Below, piece after piece: positions 1 through 29,229 of a stretch of 51,107 nucleotides of DNA (position 1 is its first letter; each line of letters begins with the position of its first letter). The notes under the pieces are model-generated. The model ran no database searches and was not told where the DNA came from. It saw only the letters and a list, made by a program, of their open reading frames with translations. A program made the translations under genes and the position numbers. The DNA lies in contig JANYIJ010000192.1 of the NCBI GenBank assembly GCA_025362095.1, positions 1 through 51,107 on the forward strand. The letters are read 5' to 3'. This stretch comes from Gemmatimonadota bacterium. Its GTDB lineage: Bacteria; Gemmatimonadota; Gemmatimonadetes; Gemmatimonadales; Gemmatimonadaceae.

Positions 1-2416
1 CCTCAACCGGATTCGCCTTCATCGCCCGCACCGCGGGCCCGAGGCACGCCACCATTGTCACGATCAACAGTGTCACTTCGGCCCCGATCAGCGCCGTCGC
101 GTCCACCGGATAGACGCCATACATCTTGTCCCAGAGCATGAACCCTGCCCACATGCCGAATCCGGCGCCCACTGCTGTTCCACCGAGCGCCATGATCAAG
201 GCCTCGGTGAGAACCAGCCTCACGACGTTCTCGCGTGTGGCGCCGAGCGCAATGCGCAGAGCGAACTCGCGCATGCGGAGTCCTGCGATGTACGAGATCA
301 CGCTGAAGAGGCCCGCCGCGCCAAGAACAAGCGACGCGATTCCGAGCAGCGAAAAGACCAGAGCCAGAAACCGTTCTTCCGTAAGCGAGTCGTCGTAGCT
401 CTGCGTCCAGGGAACTGTGCGCACGTAGCTGTTGGGCGGCAGCAGCGCGAAAAGGGTGCGCGCGATCTTCAAGCGCATCCCCGTTTGTGCCGCGACGGGT
501 CGCACGACGTAATGATGCGTCTCCCGGCTGCTGTCGGGTGCCGAGATGAACATGACCTCCGACGAATCCGCGCTAATCTCAGGAAACGGATTGAAGCCCT
601 GAAACTTGTCCTTCACCACTCCGACGATGTGCACCCAGGGCTGCTTCGACGCGAGGCCGCCGAGCTTCAGCATCCGTCCCACCGCGCTCTCATGCGGGAA
701 GAGCTTCCTTGCCGTCTTCTGGTCGAGAATCACCGCGCCCTCGCCCGCCGCGTCACCGGGCTCGAAGTCGCGTCCTTCAGTGATCTCGCGGCTCATCGTT
801 CGGAAGTAGTCGGTGCTCACGTTCGAACAGCTCGGCGCGGTTGACGCCTTCCCGCCTTCGATAGTGCGATCCGTGGTCACAGCCGTGTGATCGAATACGC
901 ACTGCGCGATCATCGCGGCGGAACTGACTCCCTCGAGCGAGCGAAGGCGTTCAAGCCCGTGACGGTACATGTCCACGAGGTCCTGCTTCGCCCGCAGCGT
1001 GTCGTCGTTCTTGAATCGATTGACGTACACATCCGCATTGATCAGGCTCTTCGCGTCGAAACCGAAGTCGTACCGCGACATGAGCACCGAAGATTTCAGC
1101 ATGAGGCTCGCGCCCACGAGCAGCGTCATCGAGAGTGCGAGTTCGGCCATCACGAGCCAGCGAAACCGCGTGCCGGCGCGTCCGGTCGTGCCGCCGGAAC
1201 TTTCCTTGAGCGTTCCCGCCGGATCCGTGCGGCTCGCCTGCCACGCTGGAATTCCGCCGGCGACGGCGATGGCGGTCATAACAGAGAATAGACTCGCGCC
1301 GAGAACACGCACGCTCCACTGCGGCTCGGGGAATCCCATCCATCGCATCTCGAGCGGTGACGCCCCTTTGATGAGTCCGACCGCCCACGTCGCGACGACT
1401 GCGCCAGCGATCGATCCGATCATCGCGAGCGCCGCCACTTCGAAAATCACTTCGCGAGCGATGTCCATCCGGCTGGCGCCCAGCGCGAGCCGGAGGGCGT
1501 AGTCGCGGCGGCGAACGGTGGCTCGCGCGAGCATGAGCGCCGCGACGTTTGCACATGCGATGATGAGCACGCAGATCGCCGCGCCGATCATCGCGCGATG
1601 CACGTCTTTGAGTGCAAGCGGGTTGGGTCGCATTGCAACGAACGCCCCCGCGAATGGCCGGTCATTCGGCGAGCCGAACACTGCGGTAAACCGCTTCATA
1701 ATCGCGTTGAAGCCGGGTTGCACATCTTTCAGGGTGACGCCGCGCTTCAAGCGCACAATGGGAATGCCGAATCCGCGGCTGGTGTCCGCAGCGACGGGAA
1801 TCCAGAACATCGCGCCGAGCGGCGAGTTTGCGCGCGGCGGCATCACGCCGACAATTGTGTAGACGTGCCCGGAGACGCTGAGCTGCGCGTCGCCGATTTG
1901 CTTCCTGTTCGCAAACCGCGCCTTCCAAAAGTCATCGCTGACGATCGCGATGCTTTCCGCGAGCCCATCGGCAGTTGTGGGAAGTCGTCCGATGCGGGTC
2001 GGCGCACCCAACAGCGCGAAGAACCCCGGCGGCGTGTACCCGAACGTCTGGCGGGCCACCGTCTGGCCCGCATCGACGTCGGCAAAGGATAGACCGACGC
2101 TGCTCATGCCTTCGATGCCGTTGATCCCCTTGAGCCCCTCAGCAAGTTGCTTCGACGACGGGCGTATTTTCGCGCTCCCGAACACGCGCACCTCGAACAG
2201 CTGGTCGACGTCGCGGTACGGCGATTCAGGATGCGTCATCGCGTCGATGAGCGCGAACACGGACGTGGAAAGTCCGAGCGCGATGCCGAGCGAGAGCGTG
2301 GCTATCGCGACGAAGCCGGGCGACCTGCGCAGCGTGCGGCTCGTGCGCGGAACCGACGCGAAGAGCGCGCGAAAAAACTCGACTATGTCTTTCACGCGGT
2401 CTCGAACCGTGGCCAT
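1..2416 (-). CDS. MacB/FtsX-like orphan ABC permease (ADOP type), C-terminal end cut by window edge
   Basis: Reading the minus strand from ATG at 2416 gives an uninterrupted frame of 805 codons that runs off the window at base 2. The last visible residues (ANPVE) match the usual end of this family (DPxxALRxE), so only about five residues are missing. The N-terminus carries the first transmembrane segment, with ATLSLGIALGLSTSVFAL following a short amphipathic region. A MacB-like periplasmic domain, an FtsX domain (IIACANVAALMLARA, then RRRDYALRLALGASR), a second periplasmic domain and a second FtsX domain (MREFALRIALGATRENVVRLVL) follow. The full duplicated architecture, about 800 residues, fits acidobacterial duplicated orphan permeases, which usually lack a neighbouring ATPase; none is visible here. 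Substrate is unknown. A GGAG lies about 10 nt upstream of the chosen ATG. Confidence 0.88.
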   Translation of the reverse strand, partial: MATVRDRVKDIVEFFRALFASVPRTSRTLRRSPGFVAIATLSLGIALGLSTSVFALIDAMTHPESPYRDVDQLFEVRVFGSAKIRPSSKQLAEGLKGINGIEGMSSVGLSFADVDAGQTVARQTFGYTPPGFFALLGAPTRIGRLPTTADGLAESIAIVSDDFWKARFANRKQIGDAQLSVSGHVYTIVGVMPPRANSPLGAMFWIPVAADTSRGFGIPIVRLKRGVTLKDVQPGFNAIMKRFTAVFGSPNDRPFAGAFVAMRPNPLALKDVHRAMIGAAICVLIIACANVAALMLARATVRRRDYALRLALGASRMDIAREVIFEVAALAMIGSIAGAVVATWAVGLIKGASPLEMRWMGFPEPQWSVRVLGASLFSVMTAIAVAGGIPAWQASRTDPAGTLKESSGGTTGRAGTRFRWLVMAELALSMTLLVGASLMLKSSVLMSRYDFGFDAKSLINADVYVNRFKNDDTLRAKQDLVDMYRHGLERLRSLEGVSSAAMIAQCVFDHTAVTTDRTIEGGKASTAPSCSNVSTDYFRTMSREITEGRDFEPGDAAGEGAVILDQKTARKLFPHESAVGRMLKLGGLASKQPWVHIVGVVKDKFQGFNPFPEISADSSEVMFISAPDSSRETHHYVVRPVAAQTGMRLKIARTLFALLPPNSYVRTVPWTQSYDDSLTEERFLALVFSLLGIASLVLGAAGLFSVISYIAGLRMREFALRIALGATRENVVRLVLTEALIMALGGTAVGAGFGMWAGFMLWDKMYGVYPVDATALIGAEVTLLIVTMVACLGPAVRAMKANPVE

Positions 2417-2488
2417 TCTGTGAAAACTCCGGTGTATCGGTACGCCGACACAGTGTCACCATGCGCTCCCGGCGTCAAGAACAAAAAC

Positions 2489-2570
2489 GCCGCAGGTCTA
2501 CGCAGATAGTCGCGCAATTTGCGAAAACCTGCGAAAACCTGCGTCTACCTGCGGCAAGTCCTTTTTTTTT
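2489..2570. repeat. Imperfect palindrome with internal direct repeat and T9 run, between divergent genes
   Basis: Arms at 2489-2505 and 2539-2555 are inverted copies differing at two of 17 positions. The loop holds two direct copies of the 10-mer gcgaaaacct (2521-2530 and 2531-2540). A run of nine T follows at 2562-2570, so the structure resembles an intrinsic terminator read on the plus strand, although it lies upstream of the M1 peptidase gene and in the leader of the divergent permease. It resembles in style the other intergenic palindromes in this window. Confidence 0.6.
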
Positions 2571-2640
2571 GGGATTGGCACGGAGTCATGATTCGCAGTA
2601 CGTTCGCGTGCGTCGCCGCATTTCAACGAGGAGAGATCGG

Positions 2641-4260
2641 ATGATTCGCAGGCTGCTTCAGTTTGCCATTGCCGCGTCATTGTTGCCATCGCCTCTCGCG
2701 GCGCAACCCGCGCACTACGGGCGCCAACCCGGCATCGACGTTCAGCACTACGCGTTCGCCGTCGCGCTGAACGACTCCACCGACGAGATCGCCGGCGATG
2801 CGACCGTCACCATAAAATTCACGCGCGACGGGCTCGCGACTTTCTTTCTCGATCTCGCGTCCGCTGCGGGCGGCAAAGGAATGACCGTTACCGCGGTCAC
2901 CGCCGACGGCAGCGCGCTCGCGTACTCGCATCGCGACGACCGCCTCAACATCACGCTCGGCCGCGCGACGAAAGCCGGCGAGCAGCGCAAGTTCACCGTC
3001 CGCTATCACGGCATCGCATCCGGCGGATTGGCAATCGGCAAGAATCGCTATCAGGAGCGCTACTTCTCCTCGCGCAACTGGCCCGACCTCGCGCACAGGT
3101 GGCTCCCGGTCATCGATCACCCGTCCGATAAAGCCACAGCCGAGTTTATCGTCACGGCGCCGGAGAAATATCTGGTCGTATCGAACGGCTTGCTGCAGGA
3201 GGAAATCCTCCTCGGCGATGGCCGCAAGACGACGCATTGGAAACAGTCCGTACCCACCGCGATCTGGCTCTACAACATCGCCGTTGCGCAGTTCGCCGTG
3301 CACCACGCGGGACTCGTGAAAGGCGTCGAGCTGCAATCGTGGGTGGCGCATCAGGACGCCGCCAAGTTCGCCGCGCTCGATGAACCGGGACGTCAGGCCG
3401 TCGAGTTCTTCAGCGAGAACATCGGGCCGTATAGCTACGAGAAACTCGCGAACGTCGCCGTTGCAGGCGGCGGCGGCGGGATGGAGCACGCGAGCGCGAT
3501 CTTCTACGGCGAAAATTCGGCGGACCGGCCCAATGCCGGCTTGGTCTCCCACGAGATCGCGCATCAGTGGTTCGGCGACGCGGTCACGGAAGACGAATGG
3601 GATGATGTGTGGCTCAGCGAAGGATTCGCGACCTACTTCTCGAACCTGTTCACGGAGCATTACAGCGGTCGCGAGGCGTTCGTTGATGCCCTCGTGCGCG
3701 GCCGCACAGGTGCGTTCCGCGCGGAGCGCCAGCAGAAGACGGCGGTCGTGCACCAAAATGCGAAGGCCACCGGCCCCGACCTCACGCAAGTGCAGTACGC
3801 GAAGGGCGGCTGGATCCTTCACGTGCTCAGAGGGCAGGTGGGCACGGACAATTTCTGGAAGGGAATCCAGAGCTACTATAAGCGCTATCGCGACGGCAGC
3901 GCGACTACCGATGATCTGCGCCGAGCGATGGAAGAGGTATCGGGCCAGGATCTCGCGTGGTTCTTCACGCAGTGGCTCACCCGCGTTGACGCGCCGGTGA
4001 TCGATGGAAGCTGGAGCTACGATGCGAACGCAAAAAAAATCATCGTCGAGCTCGCGCAGACTCAGCCGGGCCAACCATATAGAATGCCGATGGAAGTCGG
4101 CGTGGCACCCGACAGCGCCGGCGCTCCGATGAAAATCGAAAAGATCGAGATGACGCAGATGAAGCAGCGATTTGAAATACCGGCTGACCACGCGCCACGC
4201 GATGTGACGCTGGATCCAAACGTCTGGATGCTGATGGAAGCGAAATTCGTGAAGCGCTAG
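2641..4260 (+). CDS. Secreted M1-family metallopeptidase (copy 1)
   Basis: The product is 539 residues with an N-terminal signal peptide (MIRRLLQFAIAASLLPSPLAAQ). The zinc site is complete: HEIAH at residues 304-308 with the third ligand Glu327 in LSEGF, giving HExxH-x18-E. The upstream substrate-recognition motif is GGMEH (about 279-283) where most M1 enzymes have GxMEN, so the final Asn is replaced by His. The N-terminal beta domain of about 230 residues precedes the thermolysin-like domain. The open frame extends upstream to 2461, but ATG 2641 is chosen because GAGGAGA sits just upstream and a signal peptide starts there. It is followed 11 nt later by a close paralogue. By family it cleaves N-terminal amino acids from peptides in the periplasm or outside; the substrate is not predictable. 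Confidence 0.93.
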   Translation: MIRRLLQFAIAASLLPSPLAAQPAHYGRQPGIDVQHYAFAVALNDSTDEIAGDATVTIKFTRDGLATFFLDLASAAGGKGMTVTAVTADGSALAYSHRDDRLNITLGRATKAGEQRKFTVRYHGIASGGLAIGKNRYQERYFSSRNWPDLAHRWLPVIDHPSDKATAEFIVTAPEKYLVVSNGLLQEEILLGDGRKTTHWKQSVPTAIWLYNIAVAQFAVHHAGLVKGVELQSWVAHQDAAKFAALDEPGRQAVEFFSENIGPYSYEKLANVAVAGGGGGMEHASAIFYGENSADRPNAGLVSHEIAHQWFGDAVTEDEWDDVWLSEGFATYFSNLFTEHYSGREAFVDALVRGRTGAFRAERQQKTAVVHQNAKATGPDLTQVQYAKGGWILHVLRGQVGTDNFWKGIQSYYKRYRDGSATTDDLRRAMEEVSGQDLAWFFTQWLTRVDAPVIDGSWSYDANAKKIIVELAQTQPGQPYRMPMEVGVAPDSAGAPMKIEKIEMTQMKQRFEIPADHAPRDVTLDPNVWMLMEAKFVKR

Positions 4261-4271
4261 GGGAGAAGAAC

Positions 4272-6023
4272 ATGCAAAGAATTCTTTCAATCGCTCTCGC
4301 GCTCGCCGCAGCAACCGCGCCACTCGATGCGCGCGACACCTACCCCCGCCAGCCGGGCATCGTGATCCAGCACTACGTGTTCGGTCTCACACTGAGCGAC
4401 TCCACCGACTCGATCACAGGCGAAGCGCAGGTCACGATCCGATTCGTGAGAGACGGATTGAAAACATTCTTCCTGGATTTCGCGAACGAATCGAAGGGAA
4501 AAGGGATGACCGTCGACACCGTGCTGGCGGATGACAAGCCGGTCACGTTCAAACACTCGGACAACCATCTCGTCATCGCGCTCGCGCAGCCAGCGAAGTC
4601 CGGTGATTGGCATCGCTTCACGATTCGCTATCACGGCATCCCGGCGAACGGCCTCCGCACCGGCGTCAACAAATACAACGAGCGCTGTTTCTTCTCCTGG
4701 AACTGGCCCGACAAGGCGCGCGAGTGGCTGCCGATGATCGATCACCCGTCGGCGAAAGCCACGAGTGAGTTCGTGATCACCGCGCCGCAAAAATATTCCG
4801 TGATCGCAAACGGTCTCTTGCAGGAAGAAACGATCCTCGGCGATGGCCGAAAAATCTCGCACTGGAAAGAATCCGTGCCGATCGCCTCTTGGCTCAACGC
4901 GATCGGTGTGGAAGAGTTCGCCGTGCACCACGCCGGTCTCGTGAAAGGAGTGCCGCTGCAGACGTGGGTCTCGCACCAGGATCTACCCGCGAGCATTGAC
5001 CGGTTCGAAGCAACCGCGCGCCGCTCGATCGAGTTTTTCAGCGAGAACATCGGCCCGTACAGCTACGAAAAAATGGCGAGCGTGAACGCGCCATTCGATG
5101 GCGGCGCAACCGAGCACGCGAGCGAAGTCTTCTATGGCGACGGCGGCACGCGCGCCGGCGCGCCGCCGCCCGTTGCGGGTCGCGGCGGTGCGGCGGGCGG
5201 TCGCGCGGGTGGCGGCGGGCGCGCGAACGTGGTGATCGGCGGAGCCGGCGCGGGCGGAAGCGGCGGCGTGATCTCGCACGAGATCGCGCATCAGTGGTTC
5301 GGCGACGCCGTCACCGAGAGCGACTGGGACGACGCGTGGCTCTCAGAAGGATTCGCCACGTACTTCGCGCTGCTCTACGACGAGCACTACGTGGGCCACG
5401 ATCAGTTCATCAACGGCGTGAAGGGAATGTTCACGCGGGCGATCGCCGCTGAAGCACAAAGCAAGCTTCCCCTGGTTCATGAGAACATCGACGATCTGCG
5501 TGGCGTGATTCCGCAGCTCGTGTATCAAAAGGGCGGTTCGGTTTTGCAGATGCTGCGCGGCCAAGTCGGGACGCAAACATTCTGGAAGGCGATCCGCGAG
5601 TACTACGCGCGTCATCAAAACGGCAACGCGACGAGCGACGATTTGCGGCGCGCGTTCGAGCAGGCTTCTGGTCAGGACCTCAATTGGTTCTTCGACCAGT
5701 GGCTGCACGGGACAACAACGCCGGCGCTCGAGGGGAGCTGGTCGTACGATGCCGCGGCGAAGAAGATCGTCATCGATCTCGCGCAGACGCAGGCGGGCAA
5801 ACCGTTCAAGCTTCCGATCGAGATTGGAATTGTTGTCGACCCCGCCACCGCGGCGCCCGCTGGACGCGGCGGTCAGGCCGAACCGGCCGTTCGAATCGAG
5901 AAGATCGAACTGAATCAGGCGAAGCAGCGTTTTGAAATCGCCGCGGAAAAGGCGCCGAAGTCTCTTATGCTCGATCCGAATAGCTGGATCATGATGGAAC
6001 CACCCAAGTTCGTGGCGCGGTAA
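4272..6023 (+). CDS. Secreted M1-family metallopeptidase (copy 2, with Gly-rich insert)
   Basis: This is a 583-residue tandem paralogue of the preceding gene, with a signal peptide at residues 1-20 and GGGGAGAAG as a likely ribosome site. HEIAH lies at 336-340 and the third zinc ligand Glu359 is in LSEGF. The exopeptidase motif region reads GGATEH, so Met of the canonical GxMEN is Thr and Asn is His. Between this motif and the zinc helix is a low-complexity Gly/Arg/Ala-rich insert, about residues 291-332, absent from copy 1. A second smaller Ala/Gly/Arg insert lies near the C-terminus (TAAPAGRGGQ). Active-site residues are intact, but the altered motif and insert suggest changed substrate access. 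The pair is probably cotranscribed. Confidence 0.92.
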   Translation: MQRILSIALALAAATAPLDARDTYPRQPGIVIQHYVFGLTLSDSTDSITGEAQVTIRFVRDGLKTFFLDFANESKGKGMTVDTVLADDKPVTFKHSDNHLVIALAQPAKSGDWHRFTIRYHGIPANGLRTGVNKYNERCFFSWNWPDKAREWLPMIDHPSAKATSEFVITAPQKYSVIANGLLQEETILGDGRKISHWKESVPIASWLNAIGVEEFAVHHAGLVKGVPLQTWVSHQDLPASIDRFEATARRSIEFFSENIGPYSYEKMASVNAPFDGGATEHASEVFYGDGGTRAGAPPPVAGRGGAAGGRAGGGGRANVVIGGAGAGGSGGVISHEIAHQWFGDAVTESDWDDAWLSEGFATYFALLYDEHYVGHDQFINGVKGMFTRAIAAEAQSKLPLVHENIDDLRGVIPQLVYQKGGSVLQMLRGQVGTQTFWKAIREYYARHQNGNATSDDLRRAFEQASGQDLNWFFDQWLHGTTTPALEGSWSYDAAAKKIVIDLAQTQAGKPFKLPIEIGIVVDPATAAPAGRGGQAEPAVRIEKIELNQAKQRFEIAAEKAPKSLMLDPNSWIMMEPPKFVAR

Positions 6024-6051
6024 GCGGCACTCAGATTAGGTTTAGCTGTTC

Positions 6052-6124
<73 letters not shown>

Positions 6125-6153
6125 CTGCAGTTACCGATGTCCGAACGCGCCGC

Positions 6154-6741
6154 CTAGTGATACCCGCGCGTCAGCATCCGTTGCGCGGCGGCCTTGTACG
6201 ATCCGAGCGCACGATCCGGTACATGCCAGCCCATCGAATCTGCGAGCCGGTCGTAAACATTGAAGAGGTACGCGACGTGGATCGCATCCACCAGCGCTGC
6301 TTTCTCGACTCCCGTCGCAAATACCGCCCTGGCGTCGTCCGGAGTCAGCGCTTCGTGCTCAAGGGTCATCTTGCGCAGAAAGCGAAGCGTGGCCTTCAAC
6401 TTGGCATCGATAGCTGCGGACTCGAAATCGTCGAGCACCTGCTCCGTGAGTTTTTCGTCGAACGCGATCGCCGCGACCGCGGCGTGGGAGTTCGTTCAGA
6501 ACAAGCACTGGTTGAGCCGCGACACAAACGCCGCAAACAATTCACGCTCGCCCGCGGTCCAGGCAGAGGGTCCGCGCATCGCCTCGTGCGTGTGGATCGT
6601 GTGCGGCTCGCCAAAGAAGTCCTTCCGGTACGTAATCGTTCGCACGACGTCCGGCGCGCGAAAGCCGGACATCAACCGGATCATCGCGAATTTCATCCGG
6701 TCGGCCAGACGCTCGCCGCGTTCCACGACTTTCAATCTCAT
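6154..6741 (-). CDS. AhpD/carboxymuconolactone decarboxylase-like protein, candidate selenoprotein (CxxU)
   Basis: The minus strand from ATG 6741 encodes 81 residues ending SRLNQCLF, then an in-frame TGA (6498-6496), then continues without other stops as TNSHAAVAAIAFDEK to a true stop at 6154. Read through, this gives 195 residues with the typical layout of a carboxymuconolactone-decarboxylase/AhpD-like protein, whose active site is SRLNxCxFCxxxH. The TGA replaces the second Cys of CxxC, giving Cys79-x-x-Sec82 with the following His86 preserved. Codons on both sides match one family, so neither a frameshift nor two genes is needed. A SECIS-like hairpin follows the TGA. The family uses the cysteine pair for thiol-dependent peroxide or disulfide chemistry. 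The start overlaps the upstream gene's stop (ATGA). The alternative is a nonsense mutation. Confidence 0.78.
6469..6484 (-). promoter_or_regulatory. Candidate bacterial SECIS element
   Basis: In the mRNA sense (minus strand), 11 nt separate the in-frame TGA from a perfect 6-bp stem CGCCGC/GCGGCG closed by loop GGUC. The well-studied Escherichia coli fdhF element has an 11-nt spacer, a short upper stem and GGUC within its loop, which is the SelB contact. The loop guanines here lie 18-19 nt after the TGA, inside the range usually accepted for bacterial SECIS elements. The hairpin is GC-rich in a GC-rich genome, so chance pairing is possible, but spacing, loop sequence and position agree. Confidence 0.68.
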
Positions 6742-7043
6742 GCCCGCGCCACTGCATCGAGTGCAGCGCTCGCGCGCTCGCCGGCCGCTCCCAGCGCTGC
6801 CGCCACGATCAGCTCGAACAACTGATCTTCGCTGTACTGCTCGCGCAAACGATCCACGTCTTCGTCGGTCACCGTGTATGCGCGGTCTCGAATTTTTTGA
6901 ACGAGCACAGCAAGATCAGCCGGCGGTTTTCCCGCCGCTAAGTCCCGGCGCAGCGCGGCGTCGGTAGAGCCCGCGCCGTCGAGCACTGCGTTGCGGGTCG
7001 CGGCGAGAAACGGTGACAGCCGATCAGAATTCGTGGAGACCAT
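6738..7043 (-). CDS. Small AhpD-like partner protein lacking CxxC
   Basis: This 101-residue product lies directly upstream of the candidate selenoprotein and overlaps it by four bases (ATGA), which suggests translational coupling. Its helical C-terminal half (YTVTDEDVDRLREQYSED, then LFELIVAAALGAAGERA) resembles the AhpD/carboxymuconolactone-decarboxylase helical fold but has no cysteines, so it is unlikely to be a redox enzyme by itself. It may form a mixed complex with the downstream protein. The start is uncertain: ATG 7043 is chosen, but the frame is open to a GTG at 7100, which would add 19 mostly hydrophobic residues. No clear Shine-Dalgarno sequence decides it. Confidence 0.7.
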   Translation of the reverse strand: MVSTNSDRLSPFLAATRNAVLDGAGSTDAALRRDLAAGKPPADLAVLVQKIRDRAYTVTDEDVDRLREQYSEDQLFELIVAAALGAAGERASAALDAVARA

Positions 7044-7218
7044 TGGCTCGCGAGCGTAGGGGAAGAAAGCGTAGCCCGTTGCGATCCCTCCGACAAGCAC
7101 AGGTTGCGATCCGCGTGGAACTGGCCCGTCATTGCCCGTCGCACTACTATGGGGACAGCGGCGACTTTCGCGACGACGCGGGTCTCATCGCTGTCCACCC
7201 CCCACCTGGACGGGCCGA

Positions 7219-8664
7219 GTGCGCAAATTCGCAGGTCTCCTGCTCGGATCGCTGTTACTCGGCGCCTGCGCGGGAACCGGAGCCCCGCCGGATCCGCAGC
7301 TCGCGGCGCAGTGGATGCGCACCTCGCTCGCCTTTGCGCGCAGCGAGCGACTCGGTGCGCCGATCGCGGCGCGGGTTTCCGCGTACGGCTCGCTCGCACT
7401 CTACGAGGGATATGCGTCCGATGCACGTTCGCCGCTGCGGTCGCTCGCAGGCCAGCTCAACGGGCTGAGCGCGCTTCCGTCTGCGGGCGATGCTGGAACG
7501 ATGGACGGAGCGACTGTCGCTGCGGAGGCCGAGCGGGTCGTGCTCGACTCACTTTATCGCGACGGTTTCGCCAGCACGCGCCGCACGATCGACTCGCTCG
7601 CCAAAGCGCAGGTCGCCGCGCGCGTAGCTGCTGGTGTGAGCGGCGGTGTGCGCGACCGATCGCTCGCTCACGGACGCGCGCTCGGGAACGCACTGCTGGC
7701 GTGGGCCGCCACGGACAGCTTTTTCGCCACGCGCGGACGGCCGTGGGTCGCGCCTGTGCGCCGAGATCAGTGGGCCAACACGGCGACCACCGACCAGTAC
7801 ATCCCGCAGATGCTCTCGGGCGAGAGCGACGTCGTCGTGACCAAGAATCCGGGGACATCGATGGACTTCGAGCGCGTCTCGGAGAAATGGGTCTTCACCA
7901 ACCGGCCGAAAGCCGCGGGCTCCACGACGCTCCCTGCGTTCAATCCCACAAAACCCACCGAGCCGTATTGGGGAAAGCTGCGCACGTTCGTCATCAGAGA
8001 CGGCGACGAGTGCGCGCCGCCGCCCGCGCTGCCGTACTCCGAGAAACCCGGATCCGAATTTTGGAAAATGGGGAAAGAGTTCTACGACTCCGTGCGAGCA
8101 CTCACGCCGGAGAAAAAGCAGATCGCGCTATTCTGGGCCGACAACCCTATCGCGACGGGAACTCCGGGCTTCCACTGGACGAGCGTGGACAACCAGATGG
8201 TTGCGCGTCGAAAACTCTCCGCTGATCAGGCGGTCGAACTCTACGCGCTCACGTCGCTCGCAGTCGCCGACGCGTTCATTGGTTGCTGGAAGGAGAAGTA
8301 TCGCTCGCTCGTCGTGCGCCCCGTCGCGTATGTGCAGCGCGTGTTCGATCCGAAGTTCACGACGCTCTTCGCGACGCCGCCGTTTCCCGAGTATCCGTCC
8401 GGCCACTCGACGCTCTCCGGCGCGGCGGCCTACGTGCTCGCGAAAACACTCGGCGACACCATTCCGTTCGTCGACTCGACGCAGGTCGACATCGGACAGC
8501 CGCCGCGCGCGTACAAATCTTTCACGGCGGCGCGCGACGAAGTGGCGATCTCGCGGGTGTACGGCGGCATTCACTTCATGCGCGCGGTGACGCTGGGACT
8601 GGTGCAGGGGGAGTGCATCGCAAAGCGTGTGCTCGAGAAACTCAAGACGCGGAAAGGCGCTTGA
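7219..8664 (+). CDS. Vanadium-dependent haloperoxidase / PAP2-type phosphatase lipoprotein
   Basis: The 481-residue product starts at GTG 7219, where a lipoprotein signal begins (MRKFAGLLLGSLLLGAC, lipobox LGA-Cys17). The open frame reaches back to 7132, but the signal sequence fixes the later start. The C-terminal third carries the three oxyanion-binding motifs of the PAP2/vanadium chloroperoxidase superfamily: KEKYRSLVVRP near residue 358, PSGH near 393, and SRVYGGIHF near 446. This all-helical arrangement binds vanadate in haloperoxidases or phosphate in acid phosphatases; motifs alone do not tell which. It is probably tethered to the periplasmic or outer-membrane surface. The stop overlaps the TTG start of the next lipoprotein gene (TTGA). 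Confidence 0.88.
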   Translation: MRKFAGLLLGSLLLGACAGTGAPPDPQLAAQWMRTSLAFARSERLGAPIAARVSAYGSLALYEGYASDARSPLRSLAGQLNGLSALPSAGDAGTMDGATVAAEAERVVLDSLYRDGFASTRRTIDSLAKAQVAARVAAGVSGGVRDRSLAHGRALGNALLAWAATDSFFATRGRPWVAPVRRDQWANTATTDQYIPQMLSGESDVVVTKNPGTSMDFERVSEKWVFTNRPKAAGSTTLPAFNPTKPTEPYWGKLRTFVIRDGDECAPPPALPYSEKPGSEFWKMGKEFYDSVRALTPEKKQIALFWADNPIATGTPGFHWTSVDNQMVARRKLSADQAVELYALTSLAVADAFIGCWKEKYRSLVVRPVAYVQRVFDPKFTTLFATPPFPEYPSGHSTLSGAAAYVLAKTLGDTIPFVDSTQVDIGQPPRAYKSFTAARDEVAISRVYGGIHFMRAVTLGLVQGECIAKRVLEKLKTRKGA

Positions 8665-23694: not shown

Positions 23695-23723
23695 TTGCAC
23701 CTGCCCCCTGACTTTCGTATATC
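23695..23723 (+). promoter_or_regulatory. Sigma-70-like promoter of the RiPP/LodA operon
   Basis: TTGCAC (23695-23700) and TATATC (23718-23723) are separated by exactly 17 bases and lie about 60 bases upstream of the precursor start, right after the kinase gene. Each hexamer is close to consensus, unusual for this GC-rich region. Confidence 0.55.
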
Positions 23724-23724
23724 C

Positions 23725-23741
23725 GTAGGATTCTGTCCTAC
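23725..23741. promoter_or_regulatory. Perfect inverted repeat just downstream of the -10 element (possible operator or leader hairpin)
   Basis: GTAGGA (23725-23730), five-base spacer, TCCTAC (23736-23741). Its position at or next to the predicted transcription start suits a repressor site, or a short hairpin at the 5' end of the mRNA. Confidence 0.4.
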
Positions 23742-23781
23742 CGAATGCCTTCACCGGCGGACGCTCGCCAAGGAAAACTGT

Positions 23782-24279
23782 ATGGGTACCCCACCGAATT
23801 CGACGACCGCGCACGCCCGTGTTGTCAGCCGCGCCTGGACCGATCCCGCATATCGCAACCGGCTTACGACCGATACGCACGCTGCGCTCGCGGAAGAAGG
23901 CATCAACGTCCCCGCCGGGATGCAGGTGAAGGTTCTGCAGAACACGCCGACGCTGCAGCATCTCGTGCTGCCGGTTGCCCCAGGCGCTGGTGCTGCGACG
24001 GCGGGCGATGGGATCCCATCGTCCGCGCTCGGCATCATCGGCGGCGCGTCGGATGGAATCATCGGTTCAAAGACCGGTGATGGCACAATCGGCCCGAGCC
24101 AAGGCACAATCGGTCCGAGCGGCGGCACGATCGGCCCGAGCCAAGGCACAATCGGTCCGAGCGGCGGCACGATCGGTCCGAGCCAGGGCACGATCGGTCC
24201 CACCGGCGGCACGATCGGCGGCGGGAAAACCGGCGGCGACGGCATCATCGGCGGCGGAACCAACAAGCCGAAGTCGTAG
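23782..24279 (+). CDS. NHLP-leader RiPP precursor with tandem heptapeptide core
   Basis: The 165-residue product starts at ATG 23782 with AAGGA seven bases upstream. Residues about 13-67 match the nitrile-hydratase-alpha-like leader (NHLP, TOMM_pelo type): VVSRAWTDPAYRNRLTTD, AALAEEGINVPAGMQVKVL, and the end LQHLVLPVAPG. The C-terminal part is unlike nitrile hydratase: a Gly/Ala linker, then seven heptads at 101-149 of pattern G-T-I-G-P-S-Q/G, then a Gly-rich tail ending NKPKS. The core has no Cys and no aromatic residue. It is followed 36 bases later by a RiPP-type radical SAM gene. The leader plus adjacent maturase makes a ribosomally made, modified peptide likely; the modification and final product are unknown. 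Confidence 0.85.
   Translation: MGTPPNSTTAHARVVSRAWTDPAYRNRLTTDTHAALAEEGINVPAGMQVKVLQNTPTLQHLVLPVAPGAGAATAGDGIPSSALGIIGGASDGIIGSKTGDGTIGPSQGTIGPSGGTIGPSQGTIGPSGGTIGPSQGTIGPTGGTIGGGKTGGDGIIGGGTNKPKS
24082..24228 (+). repeat. Seven 21-bp coding repeats (GTIGPSx heptads)
   Basis: Seven adjacent 21-bp units encode GTIGPSQ, GTIGPSG, GTIGPSQ, GTIGPSG, GTIGPSQ, GTIGPTG and GTIGGGK. The first four units behave as a duplicated 42-bp unit, differing only at a few third positions. The Q/G alternation at position 7 indicates a 14-residue higher-order repeat, and the last unit is degenerate. Confidence 0.9.
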
Positions 24280-24315
24280 CACATCGCGCGTCTCTAACCG
24301 ACCGCGAAGCTGGAC

Positions 24316-26259
24316 ATGTCAATCCCCGGTAAAATCCGGACCACTCTGGTGTGCATGCCGTGGTCGTCGACAGCACGGCCGAGTCTCGCGCTCGGCCTGC
24401 TGCAGGCGGGCGTGCGCGCGCGCGGACTTCGCTGCGATACGTACCATCCGAATCTCGAGTTCGCGTCGATGGTCGGCGCCGAGGCGTACGCGTTCGTGTC
24501 GGACACTCGATCGTGGTTCGCGCTCGCCGAGCATCTGTTCGCAGTGGACATCTTCGGCACCGAGGCGCTCGATTCGGATCGCTTTCTCGCCGGACTGTGC
24601 GGCCAGGGTCCGCTCGCCGACGGCGAGCGTCCGATGTTTTCGTTCGACACGCTGCTGACGCTTCGCGACCTCATCGTGCCTGCGTTCCTCGACCAGTGCA
24701 CGAGTGCGTTGCTCGACGACGACCCGAACATCGTTGGATTCTCGTGCGTGTTCAATCAGGTCATGCCGAGCCTCGCGCTCGCGCGCCGTCTGAAGCAGGC
24801 CGACGCGCAGCTGACGACGCTGCTCGGCGGCGCGTGCGTGCACGGCGACATGGGGCGCGCGTATGCTCGCGTCTTTCCGGAGATCGTAGACCATGTGTTC
24901 ACGGGCGAGTCCGACACGCTGCTGCCTGAGTTCCTCGAGCGATTTGCGGAGGGACGCGACTTCTCCGATATGCCGGGCATCGCGAGCGGCGCCGCGGGAG
25001 GAGAGCAGGCGCCGATGGTCGTCGCGATGGACAAGCTTCCAACGCCGATATTCGACGACTACTTCGCTCAGCGTGAGGCGCTGCAGCTCGCCGGAAAGAA
25101 ACTCGAGCATGTGCGCGAGCTTCCGTACGAGTCGTCGCGCGGCTGCTGGTGGGGCGCGAAATCGCATTGCACCTTTTGCGGACTGAACAACGAGGGGCTG
25201 AGTTTCAGAGAAAAATCGACAGACAGAATACTCGCCGAACTCGCAGAGCTCTCCGCGCGCTACTCCTGCACGAGCTTCTCCGCAGCCGACAACATTCTTC
25301 CGCATTCCGGCTACACCAATCTTCTGCCGCGGCTCGCGGCTCAGCCCACGCAGTACTCGTTGTTCTACGAGATCAAGGCGAATCTGTCGCGTGATGACGT
25401 TCTCGCGCTGAAGTCGGCCGGTGTGAACCGGGTACAGCCGGGCGTGGAAGCGTTCAACGATCACGTGCTCAAGCTGATGCGAAAGGGCGTGACGGCCGCG
25501 CAGAACATTCAGCTGCTGAAATGGCTCGTGGAGCACGGCGTGGATCCGTTCTACAATCTGCTCGTGGGATTTCCGGGCGAAACGGAAGAAGACTACGAGG
25601 AAATGCTCGCGCTCCTGCCGCAGCTGTATCACCTCCCCGCGCCGACAGTCGGCTGCGCGGTGCTCGCGGAAGTTCACAGGTTCTCGCCGTTCTTCGACGA
25701 CCCGGCCTCGTTCGGCATCACCGGCACGCGCGCGTTCGCGTACTATGGCAATCTCATACCGCCCGATCTGATTGCTGCCGAGGAGTTCGCGTATTTCTTC
25801 AACCGCGACATCCCTGCCGACGCGCCGATTCACAAGTTCGTGCGGGCCCTCAACGCGTCGCTCGACGCGTGGACGAAATATCGCGGCCGCAAGCAGGCGC
25901 ATCTTGGCGAGGGATTCATCGCGATCACGCGGTTCGAGAACGGCGCAGAGGACCTCACTGTGCTCGGCCGACTCGAGTCGCTCGCGCTGGCGCTGGTGGA
26001 CGCCGCGACTTCCCGCAGCAAGGTCGCACGTCGTGTGGAGGAGTTGTTGCCGGGCGCTGCAGAGAGAATTGATGCGGCCATGACCTCGCTCGTGGCGTCC
26101 GGATTCGCCGTTGAGACCGGCGGCCGCATTGTTGGAGTCGTTCCGTTTGCGCGCGCGATCGACGCCGCCAAGCTGGAACAGTGGGTGACGCACCACGCCG
26201 AATCGACAGCGGCCGCTCTCCACTCCGATTCGGCGCTGGCACAACTTTCCCACTCGTGA
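24316..26259 (+). CDS. RiPP maturation radical SAM protein (B12-binding-like N-terminus)
   Basis: The 647-residue product has an N-terminal region resembling cobalamin-binding domains (IVGFSCVFNQVMPSLALARR, then LLGGACVHGDMG and VFTGESDTLLPEFL). The radical SAM cluster motif is Cys277-x7-Cys285-x2-Cys288 in SSRGCWWGAKSHCTFCG, the spacing typical of the RiPP maturation radical SAM protein 1 group. The TIM-barrel segments EIKANLSRDDVLALKSAGV and VGFPGETEEDYEEM follow. A winged-helix-like C-terminus may bind the leader. Such enzymes generate a 5'-deoxyadenosyl radical to alter peptide backbones or side chains. Genes before and after (precursor, oxidase) are packed tightly, so the precursor at 23782 is the probable substrate; maturation of the oxidase is the alternative. 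Confidence 0.9.
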   Translation: MSIPGKIRTTLVCMPWSSTARPSLALGLLQAGVRARGLRCDTYHPNLEFASMVGAEAYAFVSDTRSWFALAEHLFAVDIFGTEALDSDRFLAGLCGQGPLADGERPMFSFDTLLTLRDLIVPAFLDQCTSALLDDDPNIVGFSCVFNQVMPSLALARRLKQADAQLTTLLGGACVHGDMGRAYARVFPEIVDHVFTGESDTLLPEFLERFAEGRDFSDMPGIASGAAGGEQAPMVVAMDKLPTPIFDDYFAQREALQLAGKKLEHVRELPYESSRGCWWGAKSHCTFCGLNNEGLSFREKSTDRILAELAELSARYSCTSFSAADNILPHSGYTNLLPRLAAQPTQYSLFYEIKANLSRDDVLALKSAGVNRVQPGVEAFNDHVLKLMRKGVTAAQNIQLLKWLVEHGVDPFYNLLVGFPGETEEDYEEMLALLPQLYHLPAPTVGCAVLAEVHRFSPFFDDPASFGITGTRAFAYYGNLIPPDLIAAEEFAYFFNRDIPADAPIHKFVRALNASLDAWTKYRGRKQAHLGEGFIAITRFENGAEDLTVLGRLESLALALVDAATSRSKVARRVEELLPGAAERIDAAMTSLVASGFAVETGGRIVGVVPFARAIDAAKLEQWVTHHAESTAAALHSDSALAQLSHS

Positions 26260-26261
26260 AA

Positions 26262-28115
26262 ATGGCCGATATCGTTCGCGCAGCGATTCATCCTGGCATC
26301 GGAATCGCCCGGGTAGGCAACAGCCGTGAGGAATTCTTTATTGGTCCCGAGCTGCCCTATCCGGTCGCTGCTCCGAAGGGCGGCTACAAGGACAAGCTCG
26401 GAGCGCTGAAGCGGCAGGCCGCGCGATTTCGCGTATACGGCTACGACGCAACAGGAAAAATCGTCGCGGAGCTTACCAGCGCGAACGCTGATGTTGCGTG
26501 GACCGTGCACACCGCGAACAAGAAAGCGGCCTGGTACAACTTCGATTCCGCGCTCGATATTCCCGAGGCGGTTCCAGCCGCGCGACGCAATGCGGCAATC
26601 GCAGGCGCGGATCGCGACCGGCTGGTGATCGATCCCGGTCCGCGGCGCATTGCAGGCGCGAACAAAAAGGGAAAAGAGTTTGAGCTCACTGGCGGCACGT
26701 TTCTCGAAATTTCCGTCGCGCTCGGCGAGCTTCGGACAGACGACGCGGGCCGTCTCGTAGTGCTCGGCGGCCATGGCGTCTCCGGCAGCGCCGCGCCGAA
26801 TAATACGATCTATTCGTGCACCAACAACGACGGCTGGTACGACGATACGTCCGACGGACCCGTCACTGCGGAGGTGCGCATTGGCGGGCGCTCGATTCCC
26901 GTTGATCCCGCGTGGGTCGTCGTCGCCCCGCCGAACTACGCGCCCGATATCATCTCCGTGCCGACGATGCACGACGTGATCTCCGACGCATGCCGTGCGG
27001 TCTGGTTCGCGCCCGTGACGAAGCCAAGCTTCACGAAGCACATCCTGCCGATTCTCGAAGCGTTCGTGAATCTTCAATGGGTGAGCTTCGGGTTTCACGT
27101 GCAGTTCGGCTGGAAGGGTCCGAACAATTTTACGCGCCCGGATTTTCTCGCGAAGCTTGCGGATCCGTCGCCGGCGTTTTCAGAGCATCGCCGGCAGGTA
27201 TTCAACATGTTTCGGAAACCGACGTACACCTCGTTGGGTGTCGACGCGTGGCCGCAGCTGTATGGCGACGGCACGGTGATCTCCGGCGAGATCGGCACGG
27301 ACACCGACCTGCGCCAGTATCTCGCGCTCACCTCCACGCAGAGCGCGTATCTGCAGGCGTGGTCGAACGGAGTTTTCCACGCCGACTGGAATCCCGCCGC
27401 GCTGCCGCCCGCGCAGCAGATCGAGGACGTTCCACTCCAGCAGCAGCCGCACACGCTCGACGAAGCCTCGCTGAAGTTCTGCCTCGGCGGCGCGTTTCAT
27501 CCAGGCTGCGAGATGACTTGGCCGATGCGACATTACACGATGTACAGCGCGCCGTTCCGCGTGCGGCCGCGCGCGGCGGGCATGCCGGAGCCCGACTACG
27601 GCGACGAGCTGACACCCGCGTTCGTCGCGTCCGAAACAGGCCCGCTTTTCGCGCAGGGTCCCGGAGGACTCACGCGTTGGATGGCGGTGCCGTGGCAGGC
27701 CGACACGGGAAGTTGCCGCGCTGGATACGAGGGCGCGTACGATCCGTACCTCCCAACCTTCTGGCCCGCGCGCGTTCCAAATCACGTGCTCTCGCAAGCG
27801 GACTACGAGAAGGTGATGAATCGCAAACTTCCGCTCGCTGAGCGGCAGGCCGCGTTCGAGCGTCGCTCCACGTGGTACCGGATCCTCACGGGGCCGGCGC
27901 CCTTTCCACAGCTCATGCAGCTGCTCGGCGATTTCGGCGAGCTCGGCGTTCTCGAGCGAAAGGCCGGTCCCAAGGGCGACGCGGATTTTCCGGACGTGAT
28001 GTACGTCGAATCCACGCCCGGCATCGAGACGGATGCGCCGTTCGACCGGAACCTGCGCACCGAGCCGGCATTTCGAAGGCTCCGCAGTGCGCGGCGGCCT
28101 CGCGAAGGCGATTGA
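26262..28115 (+). CDS. LodA/GoxA-like cysteine-tryptophylquinone oxidase
   Basis: The 617-residue product begins ADIVRAAIHPGIGIARVGNS, the hallmark start of LodA-like proteins. ATG 26262 is chosen; a GTG at 26256 overlapping the upstream stop is possible. The middle has GGHGVSGSAAPNNTIYS and WYDDTSDGPVTAEV, conserved in the family. The cofactor region contains CLGGAFHPGCEMTW (Cys407, Cys416) and VPWQADTGSC (Trp478). In LodA a Cys and a Trp in these segments are cross-linked to form CTQ; Cys407 with Trp478 is the likely pair, Cys416 the alternative. LodA oxidises lysine and GoxA glycine, releasing ammonia and hydrogen peroxide; the substrate here is unknown. The next gene is the expected flavoprotein partner. 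Confidence 0.9.
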   Translation: MADIVRAAIHPGIGIARVGNSREEFFIGPELPYPVAAPKGGYKDKLGALKRQAARFRVYGYDATGKIVAELTSANADVAWTVHTANKKAAWYNFDSALDIPEAVPAARRNAAIAGADRDRLVIDPGPRRIAGANKKGKEFELTGGTFLEISVALGELRTDDAGRLVVLGGHGVSGSAAPNNTIYSCTNNDGWYDDTSDGPVTAEVRIGGRSIPVDPAWVVVAPPNYAPDIISVPTMHDVISDACRAVWFAPVTKPSFTKHILPILEAFVNLQWVSFGFHVQFGWKGPNNFTRPDFLAKLADPSPAFSEHRRQVFNMFRKPTYTSLGVDAWPQLYGDGTVISGEIGTDTDLRQYLALTSTQSAYLQAWSNGVFHADWNPAALPPAQQIEDVPLQQQPHTLDEASLKFCLGGAFHPGCEMTWPMRHYTMYSAPFRVRPRAAGMPEPDYGDELTPAFVASETGPLFAQGPGGLTRWMAVPWQADTGSCRAGYEGAYDPYLPTFWPARVPNHVLSQADYEKVMNRKLPLAERQAAFERRSTWYRILTGPAPFPQLMQLLGDFGELGVLERKAGPKGDADFPDVMYVESTPGIETDAPFDRNLRTEPAFRRLRSARRPREGD

Positions 28116-29185
28116 GTTTCAGCGATTATGACGTCGTAGTCGCTGGCGCCGGACCGGCGGGTTCGGCCGCGGCAATCACGCTCGCGCGGGCAGGGGTGAA
28201 TGTGTTGCTCGTGGATCGTGAGCGGCGGCCCACGCTGCCTGTTGGCGAATCGCTTCCGCCCGTTGCGACGACGATTCTGTCTGAACTCGGGGTGATCGAG
28301 CGACTGGGTTCGCTGCTCGAGCCTTCGTTCGGCACCCAGTCGGCGTGGGGCAGCGATCGCGTGACGGACGTCGATTTCATTTTCGACGCGCGCGGCTGCG
28401 GGTGGCGGCTCGATCGCGCGCGATTCGATGCAGAGCTGCGCGAGCTCGCGCGCGATGCCGGCGCGGAACTGATGAGCGTGGATGTTCGCGCGGATATGCG
28501 CACGGATATGTGTGCGGTGGAGCGCGCGCGATTCGTGGTGGACGCCACGGGGCGCGCTGCGCGGGTCGCCCGCGCTAGGGGTGCCACCCGCCAGAGCGAA
28601 GGCAACCTTGTCGCGTTCGCGGCGCTGTTCGCTGCGGAGTGCCGTGCCGGGGAAGGCGATGAGGACTCACGAGTGCTGGTCGAGTCGGTGCGCGACGGCT
28701 GGTGGTATACCGCACGCTTGCCGAACGGCAATCGTCTAACGGTGTTCCTCACCGACGCGCCGGGCACCGCGGCGCGACGCGCGATGCAGCCAGCCGGCTT
28801 CGACGCGATGCTCGAACGCAGCGTGCATGTCGCCGCCAGGCTCCGGGAAGCGGGTTACATGCGAGCGACTGCACCTCAATCATTTCCCGCGAATAGCGCC
28901 GTTCTCACGACTGTAGCGGGACCGGATTGGATCGCCGTCGGCGACGCAGCGGCGAGCTTCGATCCGCTCTCGTCGCAGGGGATCTATACGGCGTTGTATA
29001 CCGGTGTGACCGGAGCGCACGCGATTTTGTCGCGGATCGACGGAGACGAAACGTCGCTCGCAGGGTACGATCAGCGAGTCCGCGAGATATTTGATGCATA
29101 TCGCGTGCGCCTCGCGGAGTATTATGGGATGGAGGAGAGATGGCGCGATGCTCCTTTTTGGGCCTCGCGGCAGTCGTGCAGTTAG
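28112..29185 (+). CDS. LodB-like FAD-dependent oxidoreductase
   Basis: The 357-residue product starts at TTG 28112, overlapping the LodA-like stop (TTGA). It opens with an FAD-binding Rossmann motif (YDVVVAGAGPAGSAAAITLA) and has the second FAD segment WIAVGDAAASFDPLSSQGI, the GD-box of halogenase/geranylgeranyl-reductase-like flavoproteins. PVGESLPP near residue 48 is also typical. In the LodA/LodB and GoxA/GoxB pairs such a flavoprotein is required to form the CTQ cofactor, probably by hydroxylating the tryptophan; that role is inferred from position and family. It could also act on the RiPP precursor. It is the last gene of the operon, its stop lying inside the terminator stem. Confidence 0.87.
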   Translation: MSFSDYDVVVAGAGPAGSAAAITLARAGVNVLLVDRERRPTLPVGESLPPVATTILSELGVIERLGSLLEPSFGTQSAWGSDRVTDVDFIFDARGCGWRLDRARFDAELRELARDAGAELMSVDVRADMRTDMCAVERARFVVDATGRAARVARARGATRQSEGNLVAFAALFAAECRAGEGDEDSRVLVESVRDGWWYTARLPNGNRLTVFLTDAPGTAARRAMQPAGFDAMLERSVHVAARLREAGYMRATAPQSFPANSAVLTTVAGPDWIAVGDAAASFDPLSSQGIYTALYTGVTGAHAILSRIDGDETSLAGYDQRVREIFDAYRVRLAEYYGMEERWRDAPFWASRQSCS

Positions 29186-29229
29186 CTCCAAGCTCGGAGT
29201 TCAACAAACTTCGGTAGGAGCTATTTTTT
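29183..29229 (+). terminator. Intrinsic terminator closing the RiPP/LodA operon
   Basis: TAGCTCC (29183-29189) pairs with GGAGCTA (29217-29223), enclosing a second stem CGGAGTT/AACTTCG, and is followed by six T at 29224-29229. The flavoprotein stop codon is the first three bases of the stem. Confidence 0.8.

Follow-up and report, generated by a model that had tools for sequence, protein, structure and literature searches.

Proteusins and LodA-type quinone oxidases are among the described systems that come closest to the four-gene operon reported here, which lies in a 51,107-nucleotide (nt) stretch of DNA from a Gemmatimonadota bacterium (contig JANYIJ010000192.1 of assembly GCA_025362095.1; the whole stretch is called the window below) and joins the precursor of a ribosomally synthesized and post-translationally modified peptide (RiPP) to a radical S-adenosylmethionine (SAM) enzyme and an oxidase-flavoprotein pair. 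In the polytheonamide pathway, PoyC is described as a Cbeta-methyltransferase of the B12 radical SAM type, marked by a unique Cx7Cx2C motif, for which Ile3, Val5, 10 and 21 are given as methylation sites (PMC11285071). LodA and GoxA proteins are amino acid oxidases whose hydrogen peroxide (H2O2) is antimicrobial (PMC4417212, PMC4699246), the flavoproteins LodB and GoxB are reportedly needed for formation of their cysteine tryptophylquinone (CTQ) cofactor (PMC7876137), and a survey of LodA genes recorded 10 genomes in which lodA and lodB are separated by a small additional gene (PMC4417212). The maturation of the quinohemoprotein amine dehydrogenase QHNDH by QhpD and QhpG is similar to the window operon in that a CTQ protein, a flavoprotein and a radical SAM enzyme are encoded together (PMC7876137, PMC8172795), with the difference that the window has a radical SAM protein of another family and a CTQ protein of the LodA type, not the gamma-subunit type.

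The four genes form one unit on the + strand, in the order precursor, radical SAM protein, LodA-family oxidase and LodB-like flavoprotein, with successive intergenic gaps of 36, 2 and -4 nt, and all of them were found at the places and with the spacing given in the original prediction for this DNA. The features of the operon are listed below.

23782..24279, + strand: RiPP precursor of 165 amino acids (aa) with a nitrile hydratase-like leader peptide (NHLP) and a repetitive core (TIGR03793, NHase_alpha, periodicity)
24082..24219, + strand: tandem repeat of the core DNA, a 42-nt unit repeated 3.3 times (21-nt unit, 6.5 times) (repeat scan)
24316..26259, + strand: B12-type radical SAM protein with Cx7Cx2C, a predicted peptide C-methyltransferase (TIGR03975, Radical_SAM)
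26262..28115, + strand: LodA-family CTQ oxidase, with the CTQ residues C485 and W501 as well as Asp481 and His413 present (LodA_N, LodA_C, alignments to LodA and GoxA)
28112..29185, + strand: LodB/GoxB-like flavoprotein with a TTG start, a predicted CTQ maturase (GoxB, LodB and QhpG matches)
29183..29229, + strand: terminator-like hairpin with a U6 tail that ends at 29229 (fold statistics)

The precursor, which starts with ATG at 23782, passes the leader model TIGR03793 (leader_NHLP) with 55.1 bits against a cut-off of 50.9, the match covering residues 11-68, and matches Pfam NHase_alpha with 45 bits. Its core contains ten G[T/I]IG motifs, has an Ile in every repeat and is periodic at a lag of seven residues (42 of 87 positions match, a value reached by 0 of 10,000 shuffles), so that the predicted combination of an NHLP leader with a repetitive core was recovered. 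The adjoining radical SAM protein scores 561.7 bits against TIGR03975 (cut-off 281.85), with a match that spans the whole protein, and 75.9 bits against Pfam Radical_SAM; its match to the Pfam B12-binding domain remains under the cut-off (25.7 bits; 32.1 required). The stretch CWWGAKSHCTFC at residue 277 supplies the C-x7-C-x2-C motif, in agreement with the RiPP-type enzyme that had been proposed. As this motif occurs beside an NHLP precursor with an Ile in each repeat, the enzyme is first of all predicted to C-methylate those residues.

Epimerases, dehydratases and N-methyltransferases are typical of the polytheonamide cluster; the four genes of the window operon include none of these and hold a LodA-LodB pair instead, and the core differs from those of proteusins in its short glycine-rich repeats. 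The leader is of the NHLP type, which we take to be the proteusin leader. Shared with polytheonamide (PoyC/PoyB) are this leader type, the adjoining Cx7Cx2C B12 radical SAM gene and an Ile/Thr-rich core (PMC11285071). The repeated Thr-Ile-Gly of the core is also a feature of the TigB/TigE methyl-cyclopropylglycine RiPP, from which the window operon differs in that the match to the TigB model NF047709 is 14.5 bits (cut-off 70). TigE is a SPASM enzyme, as opposed to the B12-type TIGR03975 protein of the window.

The oxidase passes both Pfam models of its family (LodA_N 275.8 bits, LodA_C 140 bits), and its C485 aligns with C516 of LodA, one of the two CTQ residues (PMC4417212). C485, W501, D481 and H413 all align with the corresponding positions of GoxA. 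The scores against the equivalog models for GoxA (NF038173, 452.7 bits) and for LodA, or lysine 6-oxidase (NF038172, 216.7 bits), lie under the respective cut-offs of 750 and 600, and the alignment lacks the stretch of GoxA that holds Tyr766 and His767, a loop that we take to have a role in this glycine oxidase. By these scores and the missing loop, the window oxidase is assigned to neither the LodA nor the GoxA equivalog, and hence to no particular substrate. For the flavoprotein, the closest models are GoxB (252.7 bits) and LodB (216 bits), both with equivalog cut-offs of 400, followed by QhpG (185.8 bits, also sub-cut-off). Both genes were thus correctly foreseen as a LodA-like CTQ oxidase and a LodB-like flavoprotein. 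The pair resembles LodA/LodB and GoxA/GoxB operons in fold families, CTQ residues and the overlap of the LodB-type gene with the oxidase gene (PMC4417212, PMC7876137), and differs from them in the sub-equivalog scores of the oxidase and in that genes for a RiPP precursor and a radical SAM protein precede it.

LodA genes were also found beside RiPP-type genes at other loci. The survey drew on the best 80 of 570 relatives in a genome collection, plasmids, two viral contigs and the genomes of four phyla, and yielded 159 stretches outside the window with 158 LodA genes (L307 and L308 are pieces of one); as four places are duplicated, 154 are distinct. Operon neighbors were extracted with a home-made gene finder for 138 loci, giving 91 neighbors, of which 73 were compared with Pfam at E 1e-9 (for the first batch, the results cover the 25 commonest of 31 families), and the remaining 21 stretches were inspected by eye. 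RiPP genes may be undercounted, and many of the flanks end at contig ends. RiPP-type genes stand in the LodA operon at five of the 154 distinct places, four of which are independent (L024/L308, L026, L301 and L247).

At L024 (Caldilineaceae), a precursor-like protein is followed after 3 nt by a TP-methylase family protein (PF00590, 73 bits), which we read as borosin-like, and after a further 50 nt by LodA. The order is kept in its relative L308, where the methylase agrees at 91%, the precursor at 68% with several insertions or deletions, and LodA at 95-98%. The operon at L026 (Bryobacteraceae) encodes LodA, LodB, a 144-aa GTDDRGCPVD-repeat protein without a family match, an APH-type kinase (52.1 bits, cut-off 23.2; 38.2 bits against LxmK, far under 315), HopA1 (130.5 bits, cut-off 22.7) and a LanM-cyclase-like protein, with gaps of -14 to 17 nt; the HopA1 and APH proteins are presumably markers of class V lanthipeptide or thioamitide pathways, and the precursor has a tblastn match in L085. 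In L301, from a relative of the genome that carries L026, a 90-aa protein with no RiPP family match precedes, by 113 nt, a YcaO protein (TIGR00702, 190 bits, cut-off 75.65), a TfuA-related protein (200.4 bits, under the cut-off of 235.2), LodA and LodB, whose genes have overlapping ends. In L247, from the phylum of L026, LodA and LodB are followed after 85 nt by a 61-aa peptide with an aroma-sacti domain (34.5 bits, cut-off 30). Residues D481, C485 and W501 are invariant in the LodA proteins of the window, L024, L026, L301 and L247, and H413 differs in L301.

The tight operon and the presence of LodA beside differing types of RiPP enzyme make a tailoring role the best reading of this locus. 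We give a probability of roughly 0.53 to the explanation that the window encodes a proteusin-type RiPP operon with a quinone-oxidase module, in which LodA deaminates an amine of the peptide. The PoyC-type B12 radical SAM enzyme would receive the repetitive core by way of the NHLP leader and C-methylate its unactivated side chains, with the Ile (or Thr) residues in the GTIG repeats as the likeliest sites, while LodB would form CTQ from Cys485 and Trp501 of the LodA-family protein. Once matured, the oxidase could oxidatively deaminate an amine of the same peptide to an aldehyde or ketone, the target being with equal likelihood a Lys side chain or an N-terminus freed by removal of the leader. The original prediction had offered modification of the peptide by both enzymes as one of two alternatives, and this one is strengthened, rather than demonstrated, by the proteusin-like pair and by the occurrence of LodA in other RiPP-type operons. 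The chances appear evenly balanced for the broader proposal that LodA-LodB is a portable tailoring module, built on an oxidase with a protein-derived quinone and adopted by differing RiPP classes (proteusin/PoyC-type, borosin-like, class V lanthipeptide-like, YcaO-TfuA and aroma-sacti-domain) to install carbonyls via oxidative deamination.

Several observations weigh against a tailoring role. No recognized RiPP-type gene was found in the operon at 149 of the 154 LodA places, which indicates that most LodA proteins act elsewhere, and the five positive places are a bare count, uncorrected for background. The exact set of precursor, radical SAM, LodA and LodB genes occurs once, in one metagenome-assembled genome. 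Several of the RiPP assignments outside the window rest on sub-cut-off matches; all matches of the L024 precursor to RiPP leader models are of this kind, as is the match of the L026 protein to the cyclase end of LanM (212 bits, cut-off 304). Lys is present in every RiPP-linked precursor, at no common position. To our knowledge, every characterized LodA/GoxA enzyme uses free amino acids as its substrate. In addition, a search of the whole genome for the exporter-peptidase TIGR03796 gave nothing above the cut-off (best score 333.7 bits, cut-off 853.3).

The main competing explanation has the peptide modified solely by the radical SAM enzyme, with the co-transcribed LodA-LodB pair oxidizing a free amino acid and releasing antimicrobial H2O2. 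This would fit both the activity described for known LodA and GoxA proteins and the occurrence of LodA genes mostly without RiPP genes; we consider it possible but doubtful, as on its own it does not predict repeated siting in operons of differing RiPP chemistry, and the window oxidase lacks the Tyr766/His767 loop of the glycine oxidase. We regard it as unlikely that LodA-LodB and the NHLP/radical SAM pair before it are unrelated, having become neighbors by accident, and act separately. The operon is indeed patchy, as a protein search among 99 relatives detected LodA in one, the genome that contains the window, and the combination is unique so far, but the 2-nt and -4-nt junctions and the common terminator are not expected of an accidental neighbor. 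Among 395 genomes of the phylum, LodA_N occurs in 6 (nine places) and TIGR03975 above its cut-off in 8, including the window genome (nine places), and the window genome is the only one with both; assuming 3,500 genes per genome, about 1e-4 chance TIGR03975 neighbors are expected across the nine LodA places, and similar associations exist at other loci.

The other alternative of the original prediction, in which the radical SAM enzyme helps to form CTQ in LodA, in the way that QhpD works on the CTQ subunit of QHNDH, and the peptide serves as carrier or product, has lost ground and is now highly improbable. It draws on the analogy with QhpD/QhpG and on a weak match of the oxidase to the QH-AmDH gamma subunit over the CTQ region (PF08992, 9.9 bits, cut-off 25; NF037958 gives 14.5 bits, cut-off 50). 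Against this, tblastn at E 1e-3 found relatives of the window radical SAM protein in 0 of the 159 LodA stretches outside the window, compared to 148 of the 159 with a LodB relative, and LodB and GoxB are the flavoproteins reportedly needed for CTQ in LodA and GoxA. By a stricter count, LodB lies close to LodA in 130 of the 138 loci, four of the eight exceptions stopping at a contig end; L024 has no LodB nearby and a GoxB-like gene on another contig of its genome. The seven other TIGR03975-positive genomes of the phylum are all distinct from the six that carry LodA_N. Since a radical SAM gene does not normally accompany LodA-LodB, maturation of LodA is probably not the task of the window radical SAM protein; this role was set aside, and LodA apparently does without the enzyme. 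Radical SAM-LodA-LodB sets without an NHLP precursor, named beforehand as evidence that would count against the original prediction, were not encountered, and no second set of these genes turned up. The same tblastn search found relatives of the window precursor in 0 of the 159 stretches, and the two LodA loci from viral contigs showed no RiPP relatives.

A single RiPP-specific clade of LodA proteins was rejected. In a 108-row LodA tree, the five rows with RiPP links are scattered, with five label changes of which at least three are forced by well supported branches, and the RiPP label does not cluster (500 of 500 shuffles gave a value as low). In an earlier tree, when three RiPP-linked rows were known, all three fell within one five-row group with a support of 90, together with L021 and L061, which have a divergent LodB and no recognized RiPP gene. 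The differing RiPP chemistry argues for several separate recruitments of LodA, although three changes in the tree could equally reflect a single gain followed by two losses.

We know of no quinone-cofactor enzyme established in RiPP tailoring, and the recurring LodA-RiPP association is apparently undescribed. No report of LodA joined to RiPPs was found in open-access full texts, a scope that leaves out most subscription journals and preprints, and a review that treats both CTQ and RiPPs does so for QhpD of the amine dehydrogenase. The LodA gene survey does not contain the word "radical" and uses "peptide" once, for a protein fragment (PMC4417212), and a paper on thioamidated RiPPs mentions none of LodA, GoxA or oxidase (PMC8120280). 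If LodA does act on peptides, it would open a new route for introducing reactive carbonyl groups into ribosomal peptides, of use in ligation or crosslinking, and some members of a widespread oxidase family with mostly unassigned substrates would gain a function. The operon's four small genes lend themselves to direct testing, and the four loci elsewhere offer independent systems in which the RiPP chemistry differs.

Further observations were made at the surveyed LodA and TIGR03975 loci. At L204 (G753:C2, Myxococcota; 1468-7785), the genes before LodA encode a cytochrome P450, a PigE-like aminotransferase fusion and two proteins that match no NCBIfam model, in what looks like a further biosynthetic LodA operon. 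A similar exported-looking protein of 262-276 aa follows the LodA-LodB pair in L249 (11746-12576) and L250 (11918-12706), that of L249 having no NCBIfam match, and in L160 (3559-5373; G597) a LodA gene with a twin-arginine-like start, apparently split over two frames, precedes LodB. Among 13 TIGR03975 loci read for NHLP precursors, leader-like matches were found in L161 and L162 alone, the former weak. At L164 (G404:C166, 1193-3837), a TIGR03975 gene adjoins a relative (29% identity) of the L024 borosin-like methylase, without LodA, and at L163 (G404:C83, 5975-6448) a 157-aa open frame with collagen-like GPGG repeats at its end, possibly an unusual precursor, lies directly 3' of a TIGR03975 gene.

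At the boundaries of the window operon, the predicted terminator was recovered after the LodB gene as a hairpin (29183-29223) inside a 65-nt fold with z = -2.6, 2 of 200 shuffles being equally good; it was seen in the fold test and is absent from the list of a simple terminator scan. The near-consensus promoter of the original prediction was not confirmed, as a scan gave 0 promoter-like sites where 0.8 are expected by chance. The operon itself holds no dedicated exporter or protease, as had been stated. The genome, a 92% complete assembly in 253 contigs, has at one contig start (G000:C99:1-345) a fragment whose match to the N-terminal portion of the NHLM peptidase-exporter model reaches 39 bits, far below the cut-off, and which could be a piece of a processing exporter.

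Contamination as the source of the contig was not supported, since its GC content is even and the downstream genes are syntenic in the same genus; the contig looks native to its genome. The flavin mononucleotide (FMN) dehydrogenase and S9 peptidase genes 3' of the operon have the same arrangement in the same-genus genomes G014 and G011, with 80-86% protein identity. The FMN-dependent dehydrogenase (PF01070; 30436-31722), which adjoins the operon and is native to the genus, begins with a twin-arginine-like sequence and carries a CTNCHSG insert resembling a heme or metal site. Elsewhere in the window, at 2461-6023, there is a tandem pair of M1-family peptidase genes with 11 nt between them.

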